DNA from: Sphaerolaimus hirsutus
Taxonomy: Eukaryota; Nematoda; Chromadorea; Monhysterida; Sphaerolaimidae
Assembly: GCA_964036195.1 (NCBI GenBank)
Contig: OZ038454.1
Span: forward strand, 27,576,315 to 27,640,314
DNA length: 64,000 bases
Direction: 5' to 3'
The stretch's first letter is position 1. The number at the start of each line of letters is the position of its first letter. This document shows positions 9,701 to 63,900 of the stretch, piece after piece. A program made the position numbers and the translations under genes. The notes under the pieces are model-generated. The model was given only the letters and a program-made list of their open reading frames with translations, did not search any database and was not told the origin of the DNA.

Positions 9701-12700
9701 TTTGCAGGAGTGGTTCACGTTGGCAACGAGCCAAGAATGATTTGACTATTGTAAAATAGTGAAACATCGTTGCCTAATTTATGTTTACATTTGAATAAGT
9801 GCAAATTTTGTCGTTACTGAATCTTAAGTCTGACAAAAAAATTCCATAGAGTACCTATTCCAGAAAACATGGTATTGTATGCAAAACCCGAACCTGTTCC
9901 AACTGCATCAACTGCGACTCGGACAGCCTCCTATCCATCAAATTCAGCTCTTTCTGGTGCTCCTGCCTCAGTGAGTCCAGGGGGCACTCCCAGACCCTGT
10001 CAAATATCCTGAAAAGTGTCAAGTGTCAAGTGGCAAAGTGTCAAAAGTAATGGATAATGTCAAACGACCAGTAAAAAATAGAGTAAAAGTGAACATTTGT
10101 CGCTGCACCCGCTAGTTTACTAACACCACTAAACTGATATTTTAGTACGTATTTACTCGTTTATCATGATTCAAAGTAAATGAGTTTCATTTTGAGTTTG
10201 CCATTTTATCTCCAGTTGGCAGAAATTAAAAGGTGAACTCAAAATTTTACTTTAACACGTTCAAAGTTGATTGACGTATAAGCACTCAATTTTGAGTTTA
10301 CCGGTGTTGGTAAACTAGCGTGCGCGACGCCTGTGCAGGGTATTTTACATGACTTGACAAAATGTTATAAGGAATGTCAAATAACTGGTAAAATGTTGAC
10401 ATTGTTCATGTCATTTTTATTGCTGACCTTAGAGTCTTAGACACGTTGCACAACATTTTACATTTTACATGACTTTAGACACTTTGCATACAATTTGACA
10501 TTTTACGTAACTTAGACACTTTGCATGACACTTGACATTTTCCAAGGCGCTTTACAGGATCCGGGAGTGGCACCAGGGCCTGCTCCTTTTCCCTTTCAAA
10601 GCGCGCCTGAAGCGCCTGAAAAGTGTGCATGCGCTCTTCGAAATCCTTTTTCGCCGCTAAAACGTCCTCGCTCAGTGCGATTATTTTCGCTGAATATTCA
10701 GCTTCCAATTTTCGCTCGCGCTCGGCGACGCGCTCCCTGAAAGGAGATTAAAAAACAAATTTATTGGGGAACTGTTAAATCCGTTTTTTGATTAAATGTG
10801 TATTTTGTGCTCGAAGGTTTGGGATGTCATTAGGGTGTCAAAAAAATTTTTTGATGAAAAACGGAAAGGTAAAATTTTTTCACTTTACGGAAAACGGAAA
10901 ACGGAAAGGTAAAAAAAAAATTTCTGCCGGAAAACGGAAAGGTAAAAAAATTTCACTCAGCGGAAAACGGAAAACGGAAAGGTAAAAAAAAATTGTCAGC
11001 CGGAAAACAGAAAACGGAAAAATGAAATGCCGGAAAACGGAAAACGGAAAGCAAAATTTTCACGGAAAGGGAAAAAAATAAAGTGAAATTAGCACGGTAA
11101 TAGACAAATTTGCAGAAGGAAAACCTGCATGCAGGTTTGCCTGTTTGGCTTTGATTGTGGTAGCTGTACATTCTGCAACTATGGATCATGCCTGTAACTA
11201 CACTTGTAGTTCAAGCTTAACTGAACCAACAAAAAATCATCAAAAAGTAGCCATAGTGGCCATAGGAAAGGAAACACTACGACAATTTCACAGTCTAGAA
11301 GCAGTAGGAATCACTGATGACCCCTATGCAATTGATGACAACATTGCAGAGGAGATGATAATAAACAACATTTACGTCGATAACTTCATCATGAGTGTCA
11401 CGAATGAAGTTGAAGCTTTAGAACTATATTACAAAGTCAAAGCTTTATTTAACCAATGTTCTATGAACATGAGGGAATGGCTGTCAAACTCCAGATCAGT
11501 CATGAATGAAATAGCAGAAAATGACAGGAGTACAAAAATGAATAAAATTGTCGCAGTAATGGGCATGAAATAAAATCACCGAACGGACATGCTGGCAATA
11601 TCAACACCAAAATTACAAATTGACAGCATCACAACACCAACCAGACGAAACTTGAATAAATTATTGGTGTCAGCATATGACCCAATTGGGTTCACACTAC
11701 AGCACCTGTTTCACTGACCCTGAAATCCCAGTTGTCAATGCTGCTTCAAAAGACAAAAACAACACAATGGGATGAGCCAATTGAAGATAAATACAGATTG
11801 GAAAAACAATGGAAAAATGTCAGAAAACTGAAAATTGAGCCAGAAAATGGAAAAATGGCCTGGTAAAACGGAAACGTAAAAAATTTTCAGCCAGAAAACG
11901 GAAAAATGGGTCGGAAAAACGGAAACGGAAAGGTAAAAAATTTTCAGCTGCCGGAAAATGGAAAACGGAAAGGTAAAAATTTTTCGGCTGCCGGAAAACG
12001 GAAAGGTAAAAATTTTTCGGCTGCCGGAAAACGGAAAACGGAAAGGTAAAAAAGTTTCCTGCGGAAAGGCGGAAACGGAAAACGGAAACGGAAATTTGAC
12101 ACCCTAGATGTCATTTACAATTACCGTATTTCCTAGAAATACCCCCCCTCGTTTGCCCCCCCCTCTCGAGACCACTATGAAACAATCACCCCCCCTCGAA
12201 ATACCCCCCCAGATTGAGTGTAAAGAGAACGTACATGACAAATACTGCAGTTTGTGTTCTGCGTAGTGCAGAACACACGTTAAAAGAATGTCGGAATCAC
12301 GTTAGAACAGTGTGGTGTGTTTATACCATCTACGTACTAATACATTAGTCTACAGGAGTCTTTACATGTCATTTATTGATGCATTTTTCTACCCCAGCGC
12401 ACATCACAAACAACGATTTTGTACTAGGATTTCAAAAAAGTTCTTGCGAAATAATAACCCCCCCCCCTCGAAATACCCCCCCTCGTTTAACCCCCCCCCC
12501 CCCCCCGCTCGGGAGTACTATGAAACAATCACCCCCGGGGGGTATTTCGAGGAAATACGGTAAATTTGGCTCCCGATATCCGGCGAATTTGCCTGTGTCA
12601 GTTATAACTCAGAACCAAATTGAGATAATTTCAATGGAGTAAAATTGCAACACGAGCCGCCGGAAGCAATAATTTTCTTGAATAAATCATACCCTTGGAA

Positions 12701-21103: not shown

Positions 21104-21378
21104 GGTGCCACTCCCAGAGCCTGTAAAATGTCAAATGTCATGCAAACTGTCAAAAGTCATGCAAAATGTCTCGTAAAATGTCAAATGTCATGCAAAGAGT
21201 CAAAAGCCATGCAAAATGTCCTGTAAAATGCCAAATGCCACGTAAAATGCCATTTTGCACGGCATTTTACCTACTTGACTATTGACACTTTGTCTTATAT
21301 TTTACATTGCAGGGATTTTAAATGACTTTAGACATTTCGCATGACATTTGACATTTTACAAGGTCTGGGAGTGGCACC
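21104..21378. mobile_element. introner-family MITE, intergenic copy
   Basis: Inverted ends GGGTGCCACTCCCAGA and TCTGGGAGTGGCACCC enclose CCTGTAAAATGTCAAATGTC words and their inverse. It is the same family that forms FAM184 intron 3 and WRAP53 intron 3, here outside any gene. Confidence 0.82.
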
Positions 21379-23623: not shown

Positions 23624-26600
23624 GTCGGTTTGGCGGAGCTCTCCAAGATTTTGATTCTCCGGGTTGCATAGATAGCAAATCGATCCGCCGGAGAGATAGA
23701 TAGCCAGTAGATTGTGTACTTTTTTGCCAATTTTGGTAACTTGGGCCCTACGATGCATCGTTAAGAAGTTATTTAACTTTCAATTTGAAATGTCCACTTT
23801 TACTCCCTATTTTGGGTTTTTGAAAAGTTCATCAAATATCACACCACAACAAAAGTTGTGGCTACAAATCTGATGGTATGTAGTGCGGGACAAGCTTTTT
23901 CGCTCAAACACGGCGCTGTTTGGCCAGTGGCAAGATGTGCATATATGCACTTTTGGAATAAAACTCTTCAAATGCTTTTCGAAAGGTTTTCAAACACAGT
24001 TCAAATGTCCCAAATAGTTCAACCAACAAACATTTAGCTTTAATACTGTCAACAAACTTTCCCAAAACCCCAAATTTAGCAACAACAAAAAAAAGAAAAA
24101 AATTTTCAGCTGACAATGACCAGCTGATGGAAGATGGGTTGGATGCGGAAGCGAAGGAACGTTTATCCGAGCACGCCGTCGAGTCGCCAGACCTCGCCCA
24201 GCGTGAGTTTCAATTTTAATTGTGCTTGAATTTGAGAAATTTGAATTTCTTGCTTGAACCCTGGTGCCAGTCCCGCACCCGGTATAGTATAAGTCAAGTG
24301 TCGAATGTCATGTAAAATTTCATACACATTTGTCAATTGTCTTGCAAATATCAAAAGTTCAGTAATGTACTTTTTTCTTTTTTAATTTACATTTTACATG
24401 ATATTTCAAATTTTATTTTAGGCGGTGTTTACAGAAAAAATTGAAAATGACACAAATTATTTTTTAAGCTTCATATTTCAAGAATATTTCAAGCAGAATG
24501 TTCTGTATTTGTGAGTGAAGGTAGTGAAGTTTACAGACTACAGGGGTTTGAAAGAATTCTGCTGCGTGGCCGCGACTGATCTGCGACAACAGCATTTAAA
24601 AATGCCTATAACTTATGAGCAACAAGCCCTACTTGTGTATCGAGCAGTATTTTTTATGTGTACTTCGCTGTTTTTCTCTCTTTAACAAATATGGGACTTT
24701 TCCTGGAAATATGAAACTTTAAAGGGCGCAGAAGTGCCCCTGAATGTCGCCCAAACTCTACACGCAGAAGCTAATTCGCAATCACCATCGCAACCGGTCG
24801 TGGGTCCCGCTGGCGATGTGCCAAGTCTCCCTGAAATTGAGCCGGTTGAATTCGATTTCATTCACGGTGGTAGAACTTTGTGTTCAGTTGATTTTGAGTC
24901 TCGCTTTGCCGGTCTACCCGGCAGGTGCCAATCCCGGATCCTGTAAAATGCCCTGTAAAATGTCAAATGTCGTGCAAAGTGTCTAAAGTCATGTAAAATG
25001 TCATGTAAAGTAAAGTGTTTAAAGTCAAGTAGAAAGACGTGTCAAACTTAATTCATTGTACCAGTTATTTGCCATTTTTCATGACATTTTACTTGACTTT
25101 TGACACATTGCATGACATTTTCCATTTTACAGGGCAGTTTACAGGGTCCCGGAGTGGCCTCAGATGTCAGCGCAATAATTATTTGAAGGGATGCAAATGG
25201 TCCAAATGCGGAAAGTATTTGCTCGCCAGTTCCCAAGACAGATTTTTGAGAGTTTTTCGACTGAACGAAGATGCTCTGAAAATGCAGGATCTATCATGTG
25301 GCTTCAGTGAGTGTGTTTACATTTCCTTAGCCAGCCCTGCACCTAGGGATGGCCAAAAAATGTCCCAAAAAACAGCTGCCATCTCTACACCCTTGTAAAA
25401 TGTTTACTACATTTGAACGCGGCCAATTTGTACAATGTTTTACATATGGTGTGTTAAATATATAGACTTTTTCAAGGTGTTGAAGGCAGAAAAAGGAGAG
25501 AAATCGCTTATAAATACGGGGAAAACAGTTACAAATAGCCAGGGAAAATAGGTACATAAGCACATATAGCCAAAAATGGGCAAGAATAGACAATAAACCA
25601 CATGGTCTGGTGATTAGGGATGGCAAGCGCTTTTTTTCAAGCGCTTTTTTTTAAAAAAACGCCGCTTTTTTTTAAAAAAAAGCGCAAGGGTCCCAGCGCT
25701 TTTTTTTTAAAAAGAGCGCTGGCAAAAAATTTTGTACTCATGCACTAGGTATTTTGCAATTTTTTTTGCGCGCAAGCGCATATTTTCACATGCAAATTGC
25801 CATTGGTGGTTGTTTTCATTGGTTTTGTAGCATTTTAGTGACATTGCTTCTATTCCTGCATGGTATCATGTAATAATAAGTTGAGGAGATATGTCAGTGT
25901 AGTAAATAATATCCAGCCAATGTGCTCCCACTTTTCTACACTGCGAAACATCACTGTCATGTATTAGCCATCTTTTATAGCCAGATTGAGGCACTATTCC
26001 ATGCCTAACTTCACTTGCAGTCAAGAAACATTCAAAAACGGCGATATACATAATTAGTCGACATAAAATTGGATTTTTTTGGCAGAAATCAGCACTTATA
26101 ATGATATCAGATGATTACATAGCCATTATATGGTTATATATCATCACAAGTACTGCCACTTGTCTGATATACCTGTATATATTGACTCAGGACTAGGGTT
26201 CAAACGGGATTGACTTTTCGGGATCTGGATCGGGATCGAGATTCACTTTTTGAGATTTCGGGATCGGGATCGGGATTGGGGTTACGGGATCGGGATCGGG
26301 ATTGGTTTTTTGAGATTTCGGGATCGGGATTGGCCGGGATTGGGGTCACGGGATCGGGATCGGGATTGGGTTTGGCATTTTTCCGGGATCGGGATTGGGT
26401 TCTAGGGATAGAGATTTTGGCCATTTTTCTGGCATTCACAGTTGTTCATAAAGGTCTCAAAACACTGTTGGATGCCAGAAAAGTGGCATAAAATTGACAC
26501 TGGGGGTTTGCATCCACTTTTTTGCATGCAAAAACGTCATTATTTCACTTTTTTTATTTCCACAAATTTTTCCGGGATCGGGATCCCGGACTTGGGAGTT

Positions 26601-29600
26601 TCTCGGGATCGGGATCGGGATTTGAAAATTTTCGGGATCGGGATCGGGATTGGTATTTATGGATTTCGGGATCGGGATCGGGATTGGGGTTTCGGGATCG
26701 GGACTGGTAAATCCCGGAATTTCACGGGATCCGGGATCGGGATCGGGATCCCGTTTGAACCCTACTCAGGACCATATTTGGGAGCTTTTTAGGTAACATC
26801 TTGACAATTTTTGAAAAAAAGCGAAAAAAGCGCGTTTTTTAAAAAAAAAGCGCTTTTTTTAAAAAAAAAGCGGGGCCGTTAAAAAAAGCGCTTTTTTTCC
26901 ATCCCTACTGGTGATGCCACATAATTGAATGTGAAAATGGGCAAAAGATTATGAAAATTAGCGATTTCGTGCGAAGAGTATGACGCGATTTGTAAATGAT
27001 AAGGTAAAACATGAAAATTACGGCAAACTTTCAAATTTACGGTACGGTGCAGCAAACGGTAAATTGTTCTATCCTAATCGCAGGTAAATCGGACGAACTT
27101 CTCCCATTGACGTGCCAAGTGCCCCATGGGGACCTGGTTTATGATTTTTGTTGGTACCCACACTCGTTCCGCGGTGAGGATGCCGTGTTTGTCAGCACTA
27201 CTAGGGCGCAGCCGATACATTTTTGGGTAAGAGCATTTTTTCTATTTGGGTATAATTAGGGATGGTTGGAGTTTTCAAAGGTTTAAAAAATGTTTTAATT
27301 TAAAAAATGTTGTTTTTTAAAAACACCGGATAGTTAAAAAAATCGTTGTTTTTTCATCCGCACGTGAAATATACTCGGTGGATAGATAGCTGAAAACGGT
27401 ACTGCCGTTCGGTATCGTATACCGGAATTTGAAACGTTTACCGTAACGATGATTTCAAAAGCGCCCGTTAATAACAAAAACAAAATTGGAGTATACTCGG
27501 CGGACATCACACTTACCTACCATAACCCACCATAACCATCACCTTAGTATAAAACCTACCATAACCCATCTGAATAATGAAACAAAATAATAGTTTTTAA
27601 ATAATATTTCGTTTTTACTATGAAATAATTACTTGCGAAATTTATCACAAGATTTTATTCCTTAATTTATGGTAGGATTCTGGGCACACTGTGCGGTCCG
27701 CCGAGTATACTCATAAGCTGCTTTCAAGGTATCTGAGTATTTTAAGTTAGCTTCTAATCTCCAGTTGACGGAAATTAGAACGTAAACTCTAAACGAAACT
27801 AAACTACCTTCAAAAAGCTGATTTACGAGTATACTCGGCGGACCGCAAAGTATGCGCCCAAAATTATTTATGTCTTGGTCGATAACGCGCGAGCTGGATA
27901 CTTATGTATGCACTTTCACAATAAAAATATTTTAAAAAAGAAAAAAGCTGAGTGCGTACAAACGAGAAATTTTTTTCCGTCATGTTTTTTTCTTTTTTTT
28001 TGCTGGGATTAATTTTATTTTATTAATGATGACGTCATGATGGAGTGTTTCCCTCAGAAAAATGCATAGCATGCGGTCCGCCGAGTATACTCAAATTCGA
28101 GTATGCCGCTGTCAGTAAACTAGCGTGCTCTAGTTTGCAGGGTTTGCAGAGTGCCTTTGCAGGGCGTTTCACGTGACTTGACAAAATGTCAAAATAACTC
28201 AAATAACGTCAAATAACTGGTAAAAAATAAAATAAAAAAATTGAAGAAATCCACAACGTGTCGCAGGCGTGCGGCAGCGGCGAGTCGCTGGCCGCCTACC
28301 GCGGCATCAACCACTTGGACGAGCTCGCCTCCGCGCACAGTCTGTGCCCCACGCCCGACGGCAAGACCCTTTTCGCCGGCTATAACAAGTGCGTCAGGGT
28401 GTTCGACGTGTCCAGGCCCGGCAGGCAGGTGCACGAGATTCACGGCAAAAAGAAACGTGCGTCGGGCGTTGGCGGGACTTTTTTGGGGGTGTTTAGTGAG
28501 TCGAGGATAAACCCATGGGCCGGGGGATATGCAAATTGATGCGTTGTCCTTTTTTTAAAGTGTCACATTTAGAATTTCGACACTTTTGCAACAATTAGGG
28601 ACAATTTTCAAAACTTACCGGCAAAAAGTCGATAACTCCATGGTCCATGCTGTATCTAACTAAAGTCGATAACTCCGCCCTTTTTCTGGGGAAACAAATT
28701 GTGCTGTTGTAAATGTGTTTGCAAGAATAATTTATTATCAAAAATAATTGATTCTGGTAAGCTCAAAAGTGTTCAAAACTCAGATTTTGAGTTTCCCGAA
28801 TTTCGCCACAATCAGGGAAGTGGCCACAACCAGTGTTTCCCACTCTCGCGCAGGTATAGTGGGCGGAGTTAGCGGGATAATCTCCTCGCTGGCGTTCGAC
28901 GCGGCCAGCGAGACCCTGGCGTTGGGCAGCTACAGCGGCTCGGTGGGCCTGTACTCTGTGCGCAGCGGGGCGCTCGAGTGCTCGTTCAAGGCGCACAACA
29001 CCGGCGTCACCACCGTCGCCTATGCCAGGCAGGGTCGGTCATGGGGGGGGGGGCTTTTACAGGGGTTGTGTGGTGGTTTGTATTGTACCCCTGCGGGGGT
29101 ATTGATAGATCGGGAATCGCCCCTCCGGAGGGAAAATACGGCTGAAAAATGGAGGGGGGTTTTCGCCCGGTACCAATATGTATGCTTAGTAAGTGTAGAA
29201 GGCAGAAAAGTTGCAAAAGTAACAGAAAATTGTTAGTAATAGGTTAACATGGCTAAAAATTGAGGATTTTGCTTCCGAAACTCGATAACTCGATGTTTTT
29301 CAGTTTTGTGAAAATTGCATTTGAATCTTTAAGAGTGGCCTGAGCGGGTACGCTTTGTGTGACAACCCTTGCCCAATACTTTCTGAAAAGCCAACGAATT
29401 TCTCTACATTTTCCATATTTACAATCCTTTGGTCGGCAAATATGGCTAGAGTTACGTCCATTTTACTGTCATTATGGCAACAAATTGATCTAACAAAATT
29501 TTATAACGAGTTTCGGATGCCAACTTCATTTTTGTATGGGGATTTTCCCAATTGAGCCATTTCCCTATAAATTTATAACGAGTTTCCGATGCAAAGTTTT

Positions 29601-40600: not shown

Positions 40601-43600
40601 GACAAAACGCTAATGCAACACGGACAAAACGCTAATACAACACACTCCGGGGGCAAGTTGTCCACGGGGGAAAAGTACCTGGAATCTTTTTTAACGACCT
40701 GTCTTTTTTTCATAAAGACATTTTTTTCATAAAGACATTTTTTTAAAGACAGTGAAAAAAGTCATCGGCCATCCCTAATAGGTACATACCAATATTCATT
40801 CCTTTTCTGCATTGCCGCGTGTGCACTTGAAAATTGTCCTAATTGTCCCACTACCCGTCAACTAAAATCTGAATTGACATGGAAACCAGTTGACACCCAG
40901 TGTGCGTAGCGCCATTGCCTGCACTGTGTCACTTTCACGTGAAAATTTTCCAACAATGAAAATTTTGCAAAATTTTTCATTTTTCAGGTCGCAGCCCGAC
41001 CTGCGCGCTCAATATGCTGATTCTGGGAATGACTGGAAAATTGAACAGGTTAGCCATTGGCATTTTTTAGTTTGGCTATAGTTCAGGTGCCTCGCCCAGA
41101 CCCTGGAAATGCCCGGGAAAATGTAAAATGCCATGCAAAGTGTCGACAGTTGTGTAAAATACACTATCAAGTGATTATCAAACCCCATCAAACTTTATTT
41201 TATTTTTAATAGTTGTTTGATATTTTTCATGACATTTTACATTATTTTCGACAATTTGCATGGCATTTTGTATTTTACACGGCATTTTACAGGGTCTGGG
41301 AGATTGCCCTCAGCGATCAACTACCGAAACATTTTTTCTTTTTTTGGTTGGGGGTAGTAAAAGAAACCCCTTTTGAATAGATACTTCCGTTGATCGCGCC
41401 ACCTCCAGGGGTTCAATATAGCAAGGGGTGGTCTTTTCGAAGGGAGAGAAAACAGAAAAGAGAAAATCACTAAAATAGTTTTAAATTAGCCAAAAAAGGT
41501 ATACAAATTTGTGATTTTGAGTGAAAATTGGGGTAAAATTGCTGAATTTTCTCTAAATGTTACATAAATATATAGCTGTGTGATTTGGTTCAAAGGATTA
41601 TAGCCAAAAAATCGCCTCAGGGCAGATCGATAGGGACCATTCAAGACACCCCTGCCCCACATACTAGACTACTGTGGATGGGTAATTTCTCATTTAACAT
41701 AATATCAAAATATGTAAAATTGTTCAAATAACTTCTGTCAACTGAACCTATTGCAAACCTACTACCACCTGCACCCCGCCTGTATTGCAGATAATGCGAT
41801 ACAGTAAGTTAGGGTTAGGTAGCCGCAGGTGTACCTATCCCAACTCGCATAGGACGCGCTCCTGGCCGGTCTGGCCCAGGACGACGACTTCGCCCCGCTC
41901 GGCATCAAGCTGTTCGCCAGGAAAGACAGGTGAGTGGTGTTTTTTGTGGTCAAGCCTATTACGCATGTAAGCCCATTACGCATGTAGACCCATTATAGAT
42001 ACATTATACCCGCAGGGGTAAGAAAGGGGGCCGGTGACCCCACCCCAAACCGCCCAGCTATCTATCTATCTCTGGGGTAAATTTTTTTGCCTACTTTCCC
42101 CTGAACACACCCCCCCCCCCCGCAAATTGCCCAGCTATCTAGCGATCTGGAGCGCTTTTGAGCAATTTTACCCAAATTTTCACCCAAAATTGCTAATTTT
42201 CATACTAATAGATTTTCACCTTCAAAAGCACTTAGTAATGTGGTTTTTTGCCTAGTTTCAGCATGCCGGGTATAATTAAATGTGTTCAGGGTCTACATGC
42301 GGGATGGGTTTACATGCGGAATAGTGCAGGCCCGTTTTTTTTTTTGGGGGGGGGGGGGTTTGTCGCGCGTTATTGAAATTTTGAGTTTTTATCTACAAAA
42401 ATACCAAAAGTTTGTAGGAAGTATTGATCCTGGTGCTTTGAGCAATTCGCTTGTTGGCTCTTTTCCTTATGCAATTTTCCGTTCGGTAGATTTCATATTC
42501 ACGCTTTTTAGTTTTGTTTCCAATAAAAAAACGAAATTCGTGTGCGCGGTGCGTGAATTTTGGATCTTTGCCAATTGTTGGATGGGTTGTTAGTTTGTGG
42601 TTTTTAAACCCATTATTTTTTTATTGAAAATGATTTTTTTTAAATTTTATTTAATGGAAAGTGGCTCTACACGCCAGTTTACGGCCTAAATTAACGAAAC
42701 TGTGTTAACCGCATTTGGTTTTACCACAGTGAGTCATTCTTGATCCCAGTTAATATTAATAGTTGACGGACTCCTCATTCAAATGCGTCCGAAACTGATT
42801 TATCAGGCTTGCGAATTTCATGTCAACGACTAGGTATGTGTATGAGAAATAAACCATCTTTGTAGTACTGACTAGGGTGCCTTGGCACCCTGCCATGTCA
42901 ACTAAGTGAGTGACAAATTTCAAATTCCGGTTTAACTTCAGCGGAAAACAACTTTAGTGTCAAATATCTGTAAAGTGACACTTTGTCGTGCGTAGTGTCA
43001 TATGAAAGTTCAATGCACAGTGCTGTAAACTATGTTTCGTGAAAACTTTTCTGTCTGCATACAGACAACAAATGTTGAATTGTTGCTTTGGTGAGCTACT
43101 AAATCGCGAATTGTATTTAGTTTTCTTTTTTTGGTGAATAGTACCTTTTTGAGTGCCTGCGTAAGTACAGTCCCACTCTGCCAACACAAAATTAGTTTGC
43201 ATATCTACTCAAGTACTTTCGGTATTTTTTTGTGACCGTTTTTTTGAGTCGTAGTTAACAGGGGTTTTGAGCAGGGGCGTATCCAGGATTTTTGAGCGGG
43301 GGGGGGGGCTGCTTGTTTACGGAGGCCGGCGAACGGGGGGGCCTAAAATTTTACGTACAAAGTGGCGGAATGGCGCCATGGCGCTGGCGCCATTAGTAGG
43401 CACCACCCCATGGCGTCATTGGCGTTAACGCCAGCGCCACGGAACGCTGTATATGTATGTAAATATACATACAAATACAGCAAAAAGCACACCATTGAGT
43501 GTATTTTTAACGATTTGCGGCCACATGGAGAAAAACTAATGACAATATCTTATGTTTGGTGAATAATGCGCGCTCACGCGCAACTTTATTTACGCTGCGT

Positions 43601-46600
43601 TGAAAAAGTAGAATTTTCCGGTCACTTTCTGGTCTCACCCCGGGAAGGGGAGGGGGGCTGCAGCCCCCCCCCCCTGGATACGGCCCTGGTTTTGAGGATT
43701 TCATGCCCGCGGGGGTTCAGATAAATGGTGAATGGAGGAACAGGGGCCAGTCCCGCAAAATGAGAAGTGAGAAGTGAAATGGCAAAGGCGGAGTAAAACC
43801 GCAAAGGCGAAGTGAAACGGCAAGTGAATTGGCAAAAGCGAAGTAAACAAATAAAAAGAAAAATTTATTGCTCTTCGATTTTGCCATTTCACTTGCCATT
43901 TCACTTCGCCTTTGCGCTTTTACTTCGCCTTTGCCATTCACTTCTCATTTTGCGGAACTGGCACCAGATAGATTTAACATGCCCCGCCCACGAGATCCTA
44001 CTGCTAAAAATATTTTTCTTCATTTTCGTATTTATTTATTTGTTTCACAGAGAATAAACACGAATAAATGCATCCTCATTGCAAACTCAAACGCGGGTCA
44101 GACGTATTTATCAGTTGACCACGGGTTGACTTGTGTGGTCAAATTCATAAATGTAAGAGTGGTGTTACGGGTTCTCTATACGGTAACATTGCTTTCGCCA
44201 TTGTTTAGTGATGCAAAAGCGCCAGCGCGATGGCGCTTGGTGCATTATATTTCTGTAGCGCCTTTTACAAAAGAGCTTGACTGTGGCGCCAGTATAAAAA
44301 AGCGCAGCAGCGTTCTTGGTGGTGTTCTCCAATCGTCACAATCTGAATGGTCATCTTTTTAATGGTCAGACATAGACCCTGTGCCACTTGGCATGTAAAC
44401 CCGCATGGCATGTAGAACCGGTGGTCATGTATTTCTACCCGGCAATCACGTAGCGGGGCGTAAGTGCCAAGCGGGCAGGCTACATGCCAATCGGGTCCAC
44501 ATGCCCACTAACGTGCACCGCAAACTGCGATGTGATAATATTTTTATTGGTCATAATTCCAGCCGTGAACTGCAGCTAACTAATATTTTAATTGACCTCA
44601 CAAGCACGCGGTGCAATATTATGTTAATTGCTCACACCAGCCGCGAACTACGGTAACCGTATTCATATTTATCCCTATTTCCCCGCTAGTTTACAACCAA
44701 AAATTTCGCAACTCATAAATCCGTTTTGAACACATTGAGTTTACCAGACTGTATAATATTCTTGTCTGCCCAGTGTAGTTTACAGTCTCTTCATTCCTGT
44801 AAACTCTAAACGCACTGCTATGTGCCAGCTGTGTCTACATACCTGGCAGGTATAAAAATTTACGTGCCCGCTAGGTCTACATGCCAAGCGGGTTTACGTG
44901 CCAAGCAAGCCTGTGTCCAGGCATAGTGGTGGCATGTGTTTTTAAACCGTTTTTACTTATAACTGTGAAATTATTGCTGAGTGGATGCTGAACTGAATAC
45001 CCAATCAGAAAGTTGAAAGAAGGGTAAATTTGGTCGTAAGAGGTAAAAATTAATTACAAATTACAAAGGTTACAAATTAATTATTTAACTTGTTACTTCT
45101 CATTTTACTTCTGCTTATTATTATCACTTCAGAATTTTTTTCTCATTTAATTTTTTTACTTCTCATCTCTTAGTTGTGTGTTTTTTTACTTCCCCACCGC
45201 GCAATTTCCCCCCTGGTGCCATAGAATCTCTGAATCTGACCAAATTCTTGGCGCATGGCGCCATTTTCCATTGGCGCCCTTGTGTTTCCGCTGTTTTACA
45301 TTTCTACTCATGCTGTATTTACTCTTTTAGTGCACCGTGACCGAGTGCAAACGTACTCTACGTGTAAATATAATAGTGATAATGATCAGAATGTCTGACG
45401 CGATGAAATTTGGGCCACGCTGCAAGAGTTAAGACATGAGGGTTTTATCTAGGGTGTCAAAAAAATTTTTTTACGGAAAACGGAAAGGTAAATTTTTTTC
45501 ACTTTACGGAAAACGGAAAGGTAAAAAAAAATTTCTGCCTGAAAACGGAAAACGGAAAGGTAAAAAAATTTCATACAACGGAAAACGGAAAGGTAAAAAA
45601 AATTGTCGGCCGGAAAACGGAAAAATGAAATGCCAGAAAACGGAAAGCAAAATTTTCATGGAAACGGAAAAAATAAAGTGAAATTAGCACGGTAATAGAC
45701 AAATTTGCAGAAGGAAAACCTGCATGCAGGTTTGCCTGTTTGGCTTTGATTGTGGTAGCTGTACATTCTGCAACTATGGATCATGCCTGTTACTTCACTT
45801 GTAGTTCAAGCTTAACTGAACCAACAAAAATTCATCAAAAAGTAGCCATAGTGGCCATAGGAAAGGAAAACCTATGACAATTTCACAGTCTAGAAGCAGT
45901 GGGAATCACTGATGACCCCTATGCATATGATGACAACATTGCAGAGGAGATGATAATAAATAGCATAAAATTCAACAACAACAACAAACAATACTATATT
46001 GACTGGCCGTATAAAGAGAGTATCAGTAACCTGCCCACGGGAAAAGCAGAAGCCTTGGTGCAGTTTATATCACTGATAAGAAGATTCAACAAAGATCCAA
46101 ACTTATTCGAACAATACCGGAAAGTTTTGGACGACCAACTAGAAAAGGGAATAATTGAGATCTGTGACGACAAAACAGACAACAAGGGGATTCATTACCT
46201 GCCACACCAGCCAGTAATCACGCCGGGCAAATCGACATCATGCAGAATCGTGTACGATGGGTTGGCAGGTAAGCCCAGTTTCAACGAGTGCCTTTTTAGA
46301 GGACCAATTACAAACCGCATTAGCACTGGGCCTACTCCTGAGGTTCAGGGCAGGCAATCTAGCATTAATTGCCGATATTGAAAAGGCATTTTTGCAAATA
46401 GGATTGCATGACCAAGCTAGAGACTACACACAATTTTTCTGGTTGAAAGATGCCTCAAAACCAGTAACTGAAAATAACTTAACAGTACTTTGTTTTAAAC
46501 ACATACTGTTTGGACTTGTCTGCAGCCCAGCAATTTTGGGAGCAGTCATAAAATACCATTTAAATGTGACAATAAACAACATGAATGAATATGAAGAAAA

Positions 46601-49600
46601 TGAAGGGGAACAAAACCAGTTGGCGATGATAATAAACAACATTTATGTCAATAACTTCATCATGAGTGTCACGAATGAAGTTGAAGCTTTAGAACTATAT
46701 TACAAAGTCAAAGCTTTATTTAACCAATGTTCTATGAACATGAGGGAATGGCTGTCAAACTCCAGATCAGTCATGAATGAAATAGCAGAAAATGACGGGA
46801 GTCCAAAGGTGAAAAAAATTGTCACAGTGATGGGCATGAAATAAAATCACCAAACGGACATGCTGGCAAAATCAACACCAAAATTGCAAATTGACAGCAT
46901 CACAACACCAACCTGACAAAACTTGAATAAATTATTGGTGTCAGCATATGACCCAATTGGGTTCACAGCACCTGTTTCACTGACCCTGAAATCCCAGTTG
47001 TCAATGCTGCTCCAAGAGACAAAAACAAAACAATGGGATGAGCCAATTGAAGATAAATACAGATTGGAAAAACAATGGAAAAATGCCAGAAAACTGAAAA
47101 TCGAGCCAGAAAATGGAAAAATGGCCTGGTAAAACGGAAACGGAAAGGTAAAAATTTTTCCGCCGGAAAACGGAAAAATGGGCCGGAAAAACGGAAACGG
47201 AAAAGTAAAAAATTTTCAGCTGCCGGAAAACTGAAAACGGAAAGGTAAAAATTTTTTGGCTGCCGGAAAACGGAAAGGTAAAAATTTTTCAGCTGCCGGA
47301 AAACAGAAAACGGAAAGGTAAAAAATTTTCATGCGGAAAGGCGGAAACGGAAAACGGAAACGGAAATTTGACACCCTAGTTTTATCATCCCTCTACATAT
47401 TTTACACTTTACATTAGGGGGGTGGAAAAAATCAATTTTTTCAAACAGATTAAAATACGCTTTTTAAATCGTGGTATTTATATAGCAAAAATATGTGTAC
47501 GTCAAGTGTCACTGTATTGTTGTGTCTATTGTGGTCATATTATGTAGGTGGCTTCATTTCATGGTTTTTTAAGCATTTTAAGCAGTGATTTCTACCTAAA
47601 AATCATTTTTGTGGACTTGTGATGTATGCCGGCTTTCACAGCTGAGCTTTTTGCCTTCAACAGTAGGAATTTTACATGGAATCATGTCAAAATATGCTAA
47701 GAAGAGCAGGTGAATGGTATCAGTGGTTTGTCGGGAAAGTTCGTTCCGTTTCGGGATCGTCTCGCATTGGATCGTTCTGGACGATCAGTGGGGATTCAGC
47801 TGGGGTATATACCGTATTCTTCTAATAGAACGGCATACCTACAATAGAACGGCACCTCCGATAGAACGGCAGGTTTTGGCGCATTTTTGCGCTCACGAAA
47901 ACAATAGAACGGCAGCCTCCAATAGAACGGCACCTCTAATAGAACGGTGGGTAAAAAAGTTGATTAAAAAATAGAACGGCGCTCTTCTATACGAAGAAAT
48001 ACGGTAAACTGGAATTTATTCAAGCGTAAAATTTTACCGTGAATTGGTAGCAAGTAGCAATGAAAGGTTTACCACTAAAAAGACTATAAAACCAATGAAA
48101 GCAACCCCCACTGGCAATCTTTTTTAAATGCAATTATTAGTTTACTGAAATGATCAGTCCATGAACTGCTGTGGGACATCGACAAAATTTCGATCGAGTT
48201 TTCAAATGGGAACCCAGAAAATTCTTGCATTTTTTTGCGAATTAGGTCATAAAAGTGTTTACTGTGTGAGCTTATCAACCCTTCATATTTTACCATAAAA
48301 GAGATACCTTTGTTTGCGCATTTTAAACGTTTTTTTGTCATTCGAATATATTTCTGCACTCTTCACAACGATCGGTTGACCTTGAACTTACCGCAGCCAG
48401 GTCCAGATTTTCTACCGTGTTTTTGTAAATTTAAGTTTTTGTGTACGTGAAATATTTCAATAAATGTTTTTGTAGGGCGTTTTTGACCACGAGAATCTGA
48501 ATGTGGGAAATTGAATATTGAAACATGTTACTGTCCTTGCTTTTTGAGTGTTTATCTATGACAACCTATATCTTTATCTATCTAGTTGACGACAAAAATT
48601 TCTAAAGCTGAAAAATATGTTTTAAACGCATTTGAGTTTACCGGAATGAGGTGTTTGTCAACTTCTTCTGATGGAAATCAAAAATTTTTCATTATAATAA
48701 ACTCGAATGTGATCAAAACAAACAGATTTATCGGTTTCATAATTTTCCGTTGTCAACTAGTATACGTAGGCACAATAGTGTCATCGAAACCTCTAAAACT
48801 TTAGTTCTTTTCACCCACGTGGCTAAGCCCGCTGACGAAAATTTTAGCCGGGTGTTTACGCTTTTCCTGTTCAAACAGTTGGCTGCGTCAATTTTTTCAT
48901 CATTTGTGAATTTTATGGAGCTACATCCTAAGTTCTGACGCAAACAGACACTTTTTTGTTGACCAGAACTTTCTTCAAAAAGTTTCCGTATATAATCAGT
49001 GACTTTATTGCGGAGTTAGAGGGTTAGAGCGTAAGTAAAAAATACTTTGATCTCATAAATTTTTCATGAAAATCCTGACGAAATAATACCCATCAAATTG
49101 GGATAGTGTTCAACTTTTCATCTCTAGCAGTTTTCATGCCCACGTTTTCATCCAAAATAGATCATTTTACACCCCAGAACATGTGTTTTTTCCATGCCGA
49201 GTTGTTGTGTCACATTTCATGCCGGAGTACACTTTACACAGGGTTTTTGAGCGGGGGGGGACTGCTTTTTTACGGGGGCCGGCGAACGGGGGGGGGGGGG
49301 GATCCCCCCCTAAAAGTTGCCCTTTATAGGGACGGAATGGCGTTTTGGCGCTAGCGCCATACCAAGGCGCCACGCCATGGCGCATTTGGCGTTGGCGCCA
49401 GCGCCAGGAACCGCTTTATATAATTGTAAATATGCATACATATACAGCGAAATTTGCAAAAATCTGTTCATTTCCAAGGAAATTAGTTTACAGGGGCCGA
49501 TCCGCTGTAAATACAATGCATGGGAAGAAATTGCTTTTTTTAAGAAACAGCGAAAAATATATATCAAAAGTTGCATTTTCCGGGACTTTTTACGTTTCAC

Positions 49601-52600
49601 CCCGGGAGGGGGGGGGGCTGCAGCCCCCCCGCCCCCCCCCCCCCCTGGATACGTCCTTGACTTTACATGCCGAAGTAGTACAGTTTACAAACCAAGGGGT
49701 CATTCTAAAACTAAAATAATTTGACACTATTCATCAAAAAAATCTACTTGGCGCCATTGTCTCTGATGCCCAGCGCCATTTTTTTGGATGGCGCCATTGC
49801 GCCTGGCACCATTTTTATGGCGCTTTTCCATCGCTAATTACAAGTAAAATGACCTACTTTGCATTAAAAGTGGGGCACTAAATTTGCACGTATACCATCA
49901 TACTCAGGAAGTAAAGTGACGCAGTATACCGTATTTCCTCGAATTACCCCCGGGGGGGTTATTTTTTCAGAGTGGAAATTTTAAGAGAAAAACGCGCAAA
50001 ATGCAACAATAACCACCATTTATAAGTTTTTACAGCCTTATATAAGGATGTAGATGGTATAAACGATGTTCTAACGTAACACAGTAAGTGTTTTGAACGT
50101 CTGTTATGCATTTCCCGCACGACAAATACATAGTGCCCATTTTGACGGGTGTATTTCGAGGGGGGTATTTCGAGGAAATCCGGTATGTATACTTTCAGTT
50201 CCCATTCAGTTCCTCAAAACGTGGTTGCCTACGTGCCGTTTGCAATTTAGTAGACTGAATACAGTCTACCGTATTTCTTCTAATATAAGAGCGCCGTTCT
50301 ATTTTTTTGTCAACTTGACACCTGCCGTTCTATTGAAGGTGCCGTTCTATTGGAGGTGCCGTTCTATTGGAGAGGTATGCCGTTCTATTAGAAGAAATAC
50401 GGTAATAGGTTGAACTATTTAGTGTAGTGTTTTTGTATTTCGTTGTTTATTGTTTGTTCACGGATTAGAATTTAGTTCGTGTAATCAGTAACTAGAACCC
50501 AGTACCAGAGTTGCGAAAACGTATTTACGTTTACCCGAAATACCCGGTTATTCGGGTATTTATACTTACGTTTACGTTATGCTTTCCAAAAATACCGTTA
50601 CGTTTTGTTACGTTTTCCTGGCACAATAACCCGGGTACCAGAGAAAACGTAAAAATATGCTACACAGAACTATATTGTTTGACGAATGTAGTGTATTATG
50701 ATGAGTTCAACATGTTCTAATGTTGAAGAGTTTGAATTCCGCAATTGGAGAACTCAAACACCAATTTGCAAGTGAAAAGTAAAAAGTTGAAGGAAAGTAT
50801 TTTTGTGAGGGAGAACTGCAATGTGAATAAAAAGTCGAAACATTTTTAGTGTTTTCTCATGACTGACCATTTGTCTTTTAACTCCCCATTCAACTTAAAA
50901 ATTTACTCTTCTTTAAATTTTTACTTGCCATTCAACTTGCCATTACTTCTCACTCATAATTTTTTTAGTTCTCCTGTTACGGAATTGGCACCTTATGGCC
51001 CTACACCCAGTAGTTGACAACGACGCAATATGTAAACTCCAATCACAATTCAATATCCCGATCCCATCATTCTAAATATATATAAAATACAGGTATTTAA
51101 GCAGAAAATGTTGATGGAGATCATATGAACATCCATAATGTTGTAAAAAACATTGTGTTTTTGTATTCTCTGATAACGTAAGCACTTAATGTAATTTTTA
51201 CGTTTACGTTTTATTTTACGTTTTCCCCGGTATTTTAAAAATACCTTACGTTTTAGTATTTATACTTTTGATTTGGAAAAGGTATTTACGTTTACGTTTA
51301 CGTTTTCCAAAAATACCAGTATTTGTACAACTCTGCCCAGTACACACGCGCACAAGTAACACTTTGGTTCCGCGCACACTAGTTTACGAACGAAATTTCG
51401 AGAACTGATAAGTTAGCTGTGAATGCATTTTAGTTCACCGGTACATAGTGTCCATTATGCTCAGTTGACGGATGTTGAAAATGATATTCTGGTGAACTCC
51501 AATGTTTTTCGGACACATTTATGAGTTTCTGAAAATAGGGCCGCAAACTAAATAGGTATAATTGTGTGTAAATGGCTCTGCGCACACTAGTTTTCACACG
51601 AAATTTCGAAAACTCATCAATGAGCTTTGAACGTGTTTGAGTTTTCCACAATGAGTCATTTTTTTATCTCCGTCAACTGCAGTTGACGGTCACCCCATTG
51701 TAGAAAACTCGAATGCGTTCTAAGCTGATTTGTGAGTTTTCGAAATTTCGTGTGAAAACTAGTGTGCTTAGGCACAATAGTTAAATTTGTTTCAAAATTT
51801 TTACATTTAGCTGTTTATCATTGGAGAACATTGGCTGTTTATCAAAACATCATCTTGTTATGTTATTCTGCATTTTGATAAAAAAAAGTGTAAATATCAC
51901 GTGTACATGTGTACATTGATATCACATTTAACCACGTGGTTCAGTTTATAAAAACGGTCGCAATTACACACTGCCATTATTCAACAGATCTAATTAGTAC
52001 ATGCAAATGTTGATTTCAGACCTATTTGCTTTGTGTTTGACGTTTGATAGATATTTTATTTGTTGGCTGAAATTGATATTTAGTTGACGCCATGTTAACT
52101 AAATATTTATGTGACGTTTTGTTATTTTCGTGGCAACGTTGAACCTCGTTGACGGGGGACGTCTCTGTGTTGTGTCATTTTTTCACAATTTTTATCATGG
52201 TAAATGGCAGATAAATACTATATGTCATTTTACCGGAATTTTCGATTCGCATATTTAACTAGAAACTGTTAAATATTTTATTTTATCAAAGGTTTTTGCG
52301 TGAGAGTTACATGTTTAAAAAAACGTGTAATAAGTAAACAAGTTTGAATTGTAAATAGAAGCGGGGATTCTGTAGTGACATTTTTCAGAATGACTTTTCA
52401 ACCGCGACAAGTCGATAAATCAATGGTGAATTTTCTTTGCGCTGTTATGAATGCGCGGTTACAATTTTTTATATTTAGGTACTTTATTCTCTAACTACGT
52501 AAGAAATGCGCTATAATTTTCACGCTCGCAAGTGTCCACTAGAAAAGTCGAAACCATCGATCCAAATACAATCGACTTCAGATATATTATCGACTCTCAC

Positions 52601-58350: not shown

Positions 58351-59137
58351 TAAATGCTTTTTCCACATTAATATTTTGTCAGCCGTGAACTATTTCTACC
58401 TTTCAATCTGCTGCCAGTCCCGCATCCTGTAAAGTAAAGTGTCAAATGTCATGTAAAATGTTACTTTACATTTTACAGGGTGCGAGGCATCTCTGAAACA
58501 GATTTCAAGCGAGCAAACCCCCATCGCATCCAAAATACAGGAACAAATCTGCTTTCAAATTTTTCAACGCAAACATGCGCAACAAAAGCGTTATACGCGT
58601 GCGAGTATAATACTATTCAGTACCTATTTTTGGTCATACTTCTTGTCTGAACTGCGTAAAACACTCTCTGTGTACACAACTGTTCCTCCCTGTGCGTGTA
58701 CACGAACATTTATCGTTTTTGAAATGGTCTGAGTAAACAAACAGGTTATGTCCACTCTGATGTCATGGCAAGGTGCAGTCCCACACCGTGTAAAGTGCCA
58801 AATGTCATGTCAAGTGTCAAGTCTGAATGCTAAGTCAAATAAATTTTCTAATTACTGAACGTTTGATATATTGCAAACTTGATTAATTTTGGTGCGGGAC
58901 TGCCACCAGTGTTCTTACAATCTTGGAGTGAAAATTTCACATTGATAGATAACATAAAATGGAATTTCAGCCCAATCCAATGATTTTATAAATGAAAAAA
59001 TGCTTTAAACGTTCAACAAAGGTGAATTATTTACTCACTTTCATTATATACTCACATTCCGTGCTATAATTTAGGTGGTAAATGGCTAAAAAATATACAT
59101 ATGTACATAAATACAATATTCCACGCAAACACAACTA

Positions 59138-60908: not shown

Positions 60909-63900
60909 CTGAAAGGTGAGTGATTCATTAAATAGTGATCAGACCATATTAGAAATGATGAAATGTGAATAAATGGAACCCACAATCACTATGAACTTGT
61001 CACCATCCTGCACACCCCTGGCCAGTGAATGAAGTTTGACATTGGATAACTTCAGCTCTTCTGGCCCCTGTGGTGATTCACAATCCACATACATGAGCTT
61101 GAGTTGGCCTGGTGCCAGACCAGTCATGTGCTGTAGGGTCTTTCTCAATTGCCCCACTGTTTGATCCAGGCATATGTTTGCAGAGTAATCCAATTTTGGA
61201 TTTTCACACAAAAATTGAACCAGTGCATGTGTCCTTGGTGTGAGATCAATCTCAGCAAGTGGCTCTAGATGTCCATGGATAGCTTCCAATTCATCATATC
61301 TGGATGTGATTATGGTAACATTTCACATGTATAAATATTGATCAAAATGTGTGTGGTTGGAATAATAAACAGGTATAACCATTCACTATCAATAATGCTG
61401 CTATAGACACTTGTTTACTGCTGAAATTTGAGTTTATCAGGATTATGACTAGTCTAGTACTTTTTGTAGATTCACAAAATGATGCATCTCAATAAAAAAG
61501 GACAAATTAATTCAAAAATTCAGCTGTAAACTAGTATAACTACATCTGCCAACCTTGCGGGTAAATCCTCACAAGCCATATAATAGCGCAGGAAAAACCG
61601 TTCGGCATCCATCCGCAGCTGCGCATTGATCCTGCTGCCATTGAGCACTTCCAAATTTGACAATCGCGCCACGATCAAATTCCAGCGTTCCTCATCAGTG
61701 TGTGGCTGCAATGGAATTTTTGTGGCCTTTTTCTGGGGCTATGCCACTGCTGGGCTGTTAATTGGTGCAGTGTGGTGCCTTTCTATTGGATGGGTTGCTT
61801 GTTTGCCACGGTGATTTACAGTGAGATATGGTCTTAACTGTGAAATGGCATCTTGTGTGATGATCCTGTATCTGTATGATGTATTGTTCATTGTGCCAGC
61901 ATGTAAACACATTCCCGGTCACGTCCGGCAACCTCTTTTTGATTTCACTTGTGACATCCTATATCCAGTTCTAGGGTGCGCCAGAAGCTGAAACTTGGGG
62001 CAGATATTGGCGCAACCCCCCTCTACTTCGCAGGAATTGGGGGGTCGCGGCGACCCCCTTACAGGGTGGGTCGCCCTAATTGCAAATTTTTTATTGGCTT
62101 TTTTCTGTGTCCCACACAGGTCCGGCACCCACTGATTTCTGAGATTTGGGAGGGGTATAAATCTAAAATTTTGGGGATGTGTTACCAACATCCCTCTCCA
62201 ACTATACACCAATCAATAATCTGACATTAATGTGGAAAATTTCTGAAAAATGCACTTATTCTCTTAAAAAAGCACTACCCCCCAATAGATGGATGATGAA
62301 AAATTCACTTTTTGGAACTTTTCTATTAGACACTTGCAGAGCTGGTTTACGATACTTTAAAGGGAAGGGTTTGAGGTTTAAAGTTATGTAAAGAACCATA
62401 CCTCTAAAATGCCTGCATTACAAAGTTTACTTAGGGGGAATTTCAAAGTGTAAATTAAGTATTTTTTTGCTCCTGCAATGATGTCATTATGATGTCATAA
62501 AATTCCCCCCACATAAATTTTGCAATGCAGACATTTTAGAGGTATGGTTCTTTATATAACTTTAAACATCAAACCGTTCCCTTTAAAGTTTTGTAAACCA
62601 GCTCTTCAAGTGTCTAATAAAAAGTTCCAAAAAGTTATTTTTCTGTCATCCATCTATTGGGAGGTGGTGTTTTTTTAGAGAATAAGAGAATTTGTTACAA
62701 ATTTTTCACATTAATCTCACATTATTGAAAAGTGTATTGTAGGGAGGGGTGTTGGTAACACATTCTCAAAAATTTTGATTTATACCTCAGCTCAGAAATC
62801 AGTGGGTGCCGGACCTGTGTGGGACACCAAAACTGCCAATAAAAAATTTGTACTCAGGGCGACCCCCCCACGTGTAAGGGGTCGCCGCGACCCCCCAATT
62901 CATGCGAAGTAGAGGGGGGTTTGCGTCAATATTTCCCCCAAGTTTCAGCTTCTGGCGCGCCTTAGAACTGGAGATAGGATGTCACAAGTTAAATCAAAAA
63001 TAGGGTGCCGGACGTGGCCGGGAAAGTGTTTATTAACGTAGGTAATCAGCACTGAAAAAATCTGGTGAACTCATTTAAAAAATATTTCATTACGTTACAT
63101 TCTGAAAAAGTACCGCACTCACTTTTACGTTACGTTTTGAAAGTGATAGAGTGCAGAAAACATGTGTCAGATACGCTTTTATGTAGGAAGGCTTTTTCAA
63201 GGCATGAAGTGAAAAAATTGTGAAAAAAGCCATAAATTTGGGAAAAATCACTAAAAATATTTAGGTTTGTGAGCACACAAAGTCAAAAATAGCTGAAAAA
63301 AGGCAAAAAGCACATGAACTAGTGAATTTGATTGTGAAAATGGGCAATATTTGAAATTGAAATTTGAAGTATTGAAATTAATCATGTTGAGTGAAAATAG
63401 GGCAAAATTTCTCAAAAATATAAACTTTTAGTTTTCTAGTGAAAAAGTATTTACCGTATTTCCTCGAAATACCCCCCCCCCCTCCTCGTTTAACCCCCCT
63501 CAAAATGCTCACTCTGAAACAATCATCCCAGGGGGGTATTTCGAGGAAATACGGTAACTCAGTAAAACTACTGAGTATTTTTCTGAGTAATCGTCAAAAC
63601 GTGTTACGTTTTCTTTCTCAGGTTTGAGTAAAAAACTTAACCTTCACATATATTTTTGCTTCGGAAAAGGTTTGGTACTTTTAACAACACTGGAAGCCAT
63701 AAAGACAGCTTGAATGAAAAACATCATAGGGCTAAAAAACCTTGTCGCAAAAACCAACCACCCATCCATCACAAACCTGAAACAGGGGCATATCCCTGCA
63801 CATCCTCAACTGCTTCAAAACAGGAAAGTTGTTGATCCTGTCCACCTGCGTCCAATCGGCCACCAGCCACCGGTTCATGTTCAACGAATGCAGCCGTCCA

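Follow-up and report, generated by a model that had tools for sequence, protein, structure and literature searches.

A NuwaI-like MITE family in the nematode Sphaerolaimus hirsutus that probably generates introns by insertion into exons

The origin of new introns is a long-standing question. Introners have been reported, in the literature as far as consulted, from algae, fungi and dinoflagellates, and they are rare in animals, for which the consulted text of PMC9860276 gives two groups. In the stretch of Sphaerolaimus hirsutus DNA analyzed here (64,000 nucleotides of contig OZ038454.1, referred to as the window, whose positions are used throughout), an interruption of a FAM184 gene consists of a transposon-like element. 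The initial annotation proposed that this intron was created by an introner-like insertion with a target duplication. The question that this locus raises is whether an element that landed in a coding exon could have become an intron, and whether it belongs to a family that does so repeatedly.

The FAM184 element (9981..10573, minus strand, 0.6 kb) lies between two coding segments. The upstream exon (10574..10736, minus strand; ERVAERERKL...EREKEQAL) is by itself recognized by the Pfam model PF15665 with 41-43 bits, and its 3' end reads ...GAGCAGGCCCTG at 10574 (codons CAG GCC CTG). The element starts with GTGCCACTCCCGGATCCTGT at 10573 and finishes with ...ACAGGGTCTGGGAGTGCCCC at 9981 (GTGCC...GTGCCCC), that is, it runs from an end A with the sequence GTGCC..., which would supply the donor GT, to an end B with the sequence ...GGGAGTGCCCC, and it is predicted to fold along nearly its full length into an extended hairpin (z -15.1 relative to 20 shuffled sequences). 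It is followed by CTG at 9980-9978 and then by GACTCACTG... (codons GAC TCA CTG), the start of the downstream exon (9894..9977, minus strand; DSLRQEHQ...MQLEQ). The initial annotation described CCCTGG on either side of an element inserted in the exon, and this is confirmed by the sequence; a 6-nt match at such offsets is found in 2.2% of random position pairs. However, CTG (left copy 10574..10576, right copy 9978..9980, both on the minus strand) is the better description of the duplication, since 49 of 56 other copies have CAG or CTG (CWG) at the corresponding position, and FAM184 is alone among the copies looked at in showing CCCTGG as a 6-bp duplication.

Once the element and one target copy are removed, the FAM184 frame reads EQAL-DSLRQEHQ. 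The match of exon 3 alone ends at PF15665 position 134 (41 bits) and, from exon 4 onward, residue 3 corresponds to position 137 (17 bits, under the cut-off); these positions are contiguous, so the seam is free of gaps. The six joined exons reached 95.0 bits (E 6.4e-27) in a match that covers both sides of the seam, compared with 92.9 bits when the residues CPL were added and 94.6 bits with VPLPDPCPL; the Pfam score by itself decides little on added residues. Sequence comparison also revealed that the FAM184 element contains a different hairpin element of 232 bp (10099..10330, minus strand), with ends like GTCGC.GCAC.CGCTAGTTTAC. Partial copies of this nested type are present in the window at 27723-27827, 28089-28128 and 51617-51682, some in a WRAP53 intron and some elsewhere, and there are more matches in the rest of the genome.

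A second copy of the family, 14 kb from the FAM184 insertion, interrupts WRAP53 (24925..25160, plus strand, 0.24 kb) and forms a near-perfect hairpin (fold z -13.2). The insertion reads ...CCCGGCAG|GTGCCAATCCC...GGAGTGGCCTCAG|ATGTCAG, with a left CAG (24922..24924) that is the 3' end of the exon (...LPG R) and a right CAG (25161..25163) that is the putative acceptor. Removal of GTGCC...CAG, an exact GT-AG "intron" at 24925-25163, produces a seamless in-frame join. The exon after the element (25164..25306) has as its first whole codon, for C, the start of the match to human TCAB1 (PDB 7bgb, E 3.1e-43 with joined exons), an alignment that includes the downstream side alone.

The window holds a third two-ended copy with CAG on both sides (41087..41310, plus strand), placed inside a probable larger intron, a fourth around which no coding sequence was recognized (21105..21377, plus strand), and two short divergent copies (58411..58488 and 58773..58906, plus strand). 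For the six two-ended copies of the window the flanks agree at 19 of 24 positions (random p 5e-6, with boundaries set after looking), a value reached by 2 of the 720 orders of the right flanks, the true order included; taken copy by copy, only FAM184 is unusual (p 0.02). A four-base duplication model derived from these copies was replaced by CWG on the genome-wide data. Rfam at gathering scores returned no match anywhere in the window. Among the other features, broken reading frames occur at 45878-46844 and 11082-11573, which we take to be retrotransposon-like; a weak similarity to reverse transcriptase (PF00078, 1.4e-4, under the cut-off) was found in the first only. Repeats of the TTTCCGTTTTCCG type, visible both in the DNA and in its translated frames, lie near these remnants (10860-11050, 11735-12100 and 46850-47330). 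An open frame at 60939-61322 (minus strand) has a weak ubiquitin-like match (0.02, below the cut-off) and may be the terminal part of a TBCE-like gene.

The family is not confined to the window. A search of the genome itself (348,482,957 bases in 762 contigs, 348 Mb) with a 24-nt element end and a tolerance of 2 mismatches found 11,384 matches (5,720 + 5,664), against 0 for the reversed control. Used as a DNA query, the FAM184 element found at least 118 matching stretches among the 40 of 3468 candidates that were scored, some of which are the nested element, and an exact version of the element end had 0 matches in viral and prokaryote contigs. Besides FAM184 and WRAP53, 56 two-ended copies were tabulated, drawn from 25 fetched regions, 30 loci of contig 1 and the window; the contig-1 loci were the first exact end matches on that contig, chosen without regard to coding. 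Left out of the table were L011 3215-3403, L026, L029, L033 (two duplicates of L022) and L035 (here and below, L numbers designate loci), the single-ended L012, L024 and L025, 6 of 38 contig-1 rows (duplicates, second readings of palindromic copies and one poor copy), and the contig-1 pairs without a GTGC end. The copies are 116-578 bp long (median 196, for the 54 whose right side was assigned), and with their short length, inverted repeats and high copy number they correspond to MITEs; the inverted repeats and the target duplication are the marks of a transposon.

The left flank of the 56 copies is CTG in 28, CAG in 21 and another trinucleotide in 7 (CWG in 49/56). Where CWG stands on both sides the pair is identical in 35 of 47 copies, a count obtained with a preference for right trinucleotides that matched the left one. 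When the copies are placed so that GTGCC comes first, their end A is GTGCCACTCCCAGACCCTGT and their end B, in the inward direction, is GGGGCACTCCCAGACCCTGT; end B (GGGGC) thus starts with GGG and end A (GTGCC) does not. At the second base, 53 of 54 A ends carry T (GTGC was a selection criterion for part of this set), and 43 of 54 B ends carry G. In 50 of 54 copies there is a branch-like YTNAY motif whose A precedes the end of the right CWG by 21-27 nt (background 0.14 for such a stretch); in FAM184 it is TTGAC (9999..10003, minus strand), where this distance, to the end of the right CTG, is 23 nt. Direct repeats longer than CWG surround two elements (at least 12 nt at L023 1633-1871 and 9 nt at L032 1599-1922).

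Protein homology indicates that some of these elements sit in exons. For 9 of the 56 copies, a Pfam domain extends over both sides of the seam once the element is removed, with E 4e-6 or better: trypsin (L017, 7.5e-12), a CSAD-like pyridoxal decarboxylase (L018, 3.6e-9), RCC1 (L019, 4.7e-8), OATP (L027, 1.9e-22), two carnitine acyltransferases (L028, 2.2e-8; L065, 8.1e-14), a permease/KCC (L058, 3.6e-6), and the first and second copies in a chondroitin synthase-like gene, CHGN (L048, 1.1e-10 and 9.2e-11), which is split by two introners (1502-1767 and 2546-2709). The Pfam output came without alignments and several of these matches hold small gaps somewhere; that of RCC1, for example, has 59 residues over 47 profile positions, which implies a gap within it. 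Alignments to PDB sequences pass through the seam with no gap there for CSAD (2jis), for chymotrypsin and plasminogen (WPWQ|V, with a gap further downstream), and for OATP1C1, KCC2 and chondroitin sulfate synthase 2; the L028 peptide had no match in PDB. Neither flank of the homology-supported insertions retains any other intron sequence, and both CWG copies lie directly on the exon ends.

Other junctions gave less. The seams of L030 (TIL, 0.0018) and L015 (0.068) had weaker matches and that of L021 had none, and L032 (PCCA-like) scored 0.1 on the downstream side only. No Pfam match was obtained for the second copy of L034 (GPCR-like by eye), L031, the zinc-finger-like L062 or the junctions of L040, L042, L045, L047, L050 and L054, which appear coding by eye, and the L061 junction matched an unrelated family at 0.058. 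Same-strand readings of the unverified copies were tested in part; of the opposite-strand readings, Pfam was run on 22 of 31, with nothing at 0.01 in 20, one weak GPCR match and one with nothing better than 0.048. The GPCR-like gene of L034 carries two elements (1505-1776 and 2309-2718), and the first of them, with a 7tm_1 match of 6e-5 that is below the Pfam cut-off, is reversed and has no GT at its edge, so under the main model it should not splice. Within the contig-1 sample, homology-supported seams were found in 3 of 30 loci (4 elements), from which we extrapolate that the genome probably holds several hundred such introns.

The element itself, the CWG target copies, the in-frame seams in known genes and the thousands of end matches are read directly from the sequence. 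Similarity among copies reaches both predicted splice edges in WRAP53, FAM184 and 9 of the 56 others, and removal of the element from coding sequence restores the frame (FAM184 by Pfam, others at the PDB seams). According to the initial annotation, family copies that never coincide with intron boundaries elsewhere would have spoken against its proposal; the result was the reverse, 9 of 56 other copies splitting a recognizable domain at the seam. We interpret the FAM184 intron as one member of an introner family spread across the genome, a non-autonomous MITE that resembles NuwaI, targets CWG, inserts in exons and would be spliced out, and we assign this reading a probability of about 0.85. The existence of an intron-making transposon family is strongly supported, the membership of the FAM184 element in it is supported, and there is good support for the view that insertion, accompanied by a target duplication, created this intron, with splicing itself inferred.

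A simple account of the family is that it would be a NuwaI-type MITE in which one altered end sets a GT at the edge. Insertion at a CAG or CTG within an exon would be followed by removal of the element through splicing. One end, GTGCC instead of the transposon-like GGGGC, would place a GT at the very edge to act as the donor, and the other end carries a TTTAC or TTGAC motif that could serve as branch point, 21-27 nt upstream of the end of the duplicated CWG. At a CAG site the duplicated CAG would be the acceptor at the usual distance and the protein would be unchanged, as proposed for WRAP53, trypsin and one carnitine acyltransferase. Of the initial proposal that the element carries its own splice sites, the part that stands is the donor GT; the acceptor at the seam, where present, would come from the CAG target copy.

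At a CTG site the situation is different: the FAM184 duplication is CTG, so that there is no acceptor AG at the seam. Splicing there would use either TG as acceptor or, as had been predicted, the AG of GGGAG (9987..9991, minus strand) 9 nt earlier, with three codons added (CPL). The predicted intron 10573-9987 is in frame, but GGGAG|TGC is the worst of the four AGs, which score 3.4, 2.0, -8.0 and -2.5 with a simple home-made matrix that was applied to donors and acceptors of FAM184 and WRAP53. By the same matrix the donor GTGCCA is weak (0.9 in WRAP53, -1.2 in FAM184), and the WRAP53 seam acceptor scores -0.8 versus 5.9 for the out-of-frame TTTTACAG; stronger AGs exist upstream but are out of frame with the edge donor. 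We regard the acceptor that adds CPL as weak and a guess, and a GT-TG intron would be equally likely; the FAM184 element may also be poorly spliced. The idea that the hairpin guides the choice by hiding inner sites found no support, given that the outer sites are paired as much as the inner ones in the predicted fold. For FAM184 only, the insertion could be real and other splice sites used, for instance a donor at +44 together with the TTTTCAG acceptor, the strongest of the four (3.4), which is in frame and stop-free; this is unlikely, since the +44 donor scores -6.1 and a longer peptide of about 25 residues would enter a coiled coil that Pfam aligns gap-free at the seam.

The CTG class suggests how such an intron might mature. 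Among the homology-supported cases, the left and right target copies are CAG/CAG in trypsin, the L065 carnitine acyltransferase and WRAP53, CTG/CAG in CSAD, RCC1, OATP, the L028 carnitine acyltransferase, the first CHGN copy and KCC, and CTG/CTG in FAM184 and the second CHGN copy. In 18 CTG/CTG copies an AG lies exactly 9 nt before the end in 8, only at 7 or 10 in 3, and is absent from the stretch examined in 7; the AG at 9, as in the GGGAG|TGCCCCCTG of FAM184, would lengthen the protein by three codons whatever the phase. One of the 7 is the second CHGN copy (L048 2546-2709), which lies between open exons and has no AG in its last 14 element bases plus CTG, so the three-codon route is unavailable to at least one homology-supported case. 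TG acceptors are known in other genes, and GT-TG splicing would be the simplest alternative for the CTG/CTG copies that lack an AG. The right copy could later change from CTG to CAG and so repair the acceptor, 6 of 8 homology-supported CTG cases being now CAG on the right. With FAM184 and WRAP53 added by hand and L034a set aside, the right CAG:CTG ratio in CTG-left copies is 6:2 for the homology-supported against 4:15 for the others (Fisher two-sided p 0.025), a comparison in which an AG was required when many of the seams were initially selected, which favours CAG on the right, and in which the right trinucleotide was chosen equal to the left where possible; for all CWG copies it is 9:2 against 20:17 (p 0.16, not significant). 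End A is upstream in 10 of 11 homology-supported seams (one-sided p 0.006), subject to the same caveats. The excess of CAG in right copies is no more than suggestive of acceptor repair, which we put forward as a hypothesis because of the AG-based picking and the non-significant wider comparison. L022 and L033 are copies of a larger duplicated stretch with the same two elements, and one right target is CTG in L022 and CAG in L033, hence the T/A change does occur. A full scenario, in which base changes in one of the terminal repeats (GGGGC to GTGCC) turned a NuwaI-type MITE into an intron-maker, CAG insertions are born as GT-AG introns, CTG insertions are born as GT-TG introns or with three added codons and mature by a single T>A in the right copy, and FAM184 and the second CHGN copy are still immature, is put forward tentatively.

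It could also be argued that the elements merely broke exons, so that the insertion in FAM184, and others, would be disruptive or a recent unspliced allele. The weak donor and the missing AG at the seams of FAM184 and the second CHGN copy fit this idea, but the frames are open on either side of 10 homology-supported seams, and the FAM184 element is old enough to host the nested element. In simulations with a neutral divergence of 0.10, about half the mismatch between the FAM184 and WRAP53 copies and a rough clock, the 272 FAM184 codons stayed stop-free in only 4% of the runs. We judge this explanation improbable. Still less credible is that the elements jumped into pre-existing introns and displaced the old intron ends, as the copy at 41087-41310 inside an apparent larger intron might suggest, given that the homology-supported cases have no leftover intron sequence, their CWG copies are on the exon ends themselves, and CHGN is split at two places by two copies.

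The preferred reading, an introner family derived from a CWG-targeting MITE, would concern an animal genome with thousands of element-end matches and homology-supported exon insertions in 3 of 30 loci taken without regard to coding. Simple rules, the target base and the element end, would predict which insertion becomes an intron, and the CTG class would be a natural experiment on the tolerance and repair of a poor acceptor.

Several known systems share part of these features. The introners of Micromonas and Aureococcus, reportedly the subject of work by Huff et al. in 2016, are said to have one splice site in the element and the other from the target duplication, as would be the case here; in contrast, those hosts are algae and their duplications are said to be of 8 bp, whereas S. 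hirsutus is an animal and its duplication is CWG. In the published introner literature surveyed, a CWG-targeting introner was not found; the fungal paper PMC8476143 contains both words, Harbinger and introner, and the word Harbinger is absent from the main text of PMC9860276. Compared with the introns of Fritillaria borealis, according to the consulted part of PMC13326754, the five ordinary introns examined in the S. hirsutus window, those of FAM184 and WRAP53, are all GT-AG. The hairpin introners of Amoebophrya (PMC7789003, consulted in part) have hairpin-forming inverted repeats and direct repeats of 3-5 nt at the exon edges, and the S. hirsutus family likewise combines a hairpin from inverted repeats with short direct repeats there; in contrast to those introners, which are defined among a protist's non-canonical introns, the majority of the seams backed by homology here have GT-AG, and there may be a GT-TG class. 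In the parts consulted of Gozashti et al. 2022 (PMC9860276), which gives two animal groups, copepods being named, introners form many similar introns, part of the families have inverted repeats and short target duplications, splice sites are partly carried and partly co-opted, and insertion can add codons (legends of Fig. 2C and 2F). The many similar introns, inverted repeats, short duplications and mixed origin of splice sites proposed here agree with that description, and the CWG target, the donor at a changed transposon end and the many CTG sites without AG differ from it. Finally, the NuwaI group of the PHIS superfamily, as described in the consulted part of PMC4482050, produces CWG duplications, has inverted repeats that usually begin with GGG and occurs in animals only. 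The S. hirsutus family has the same target duplication and an animal host. It departs from NuwaI in its short copies (median 196 bp, 54 copies), and of its two ends B begins with GGG and A with GTG.
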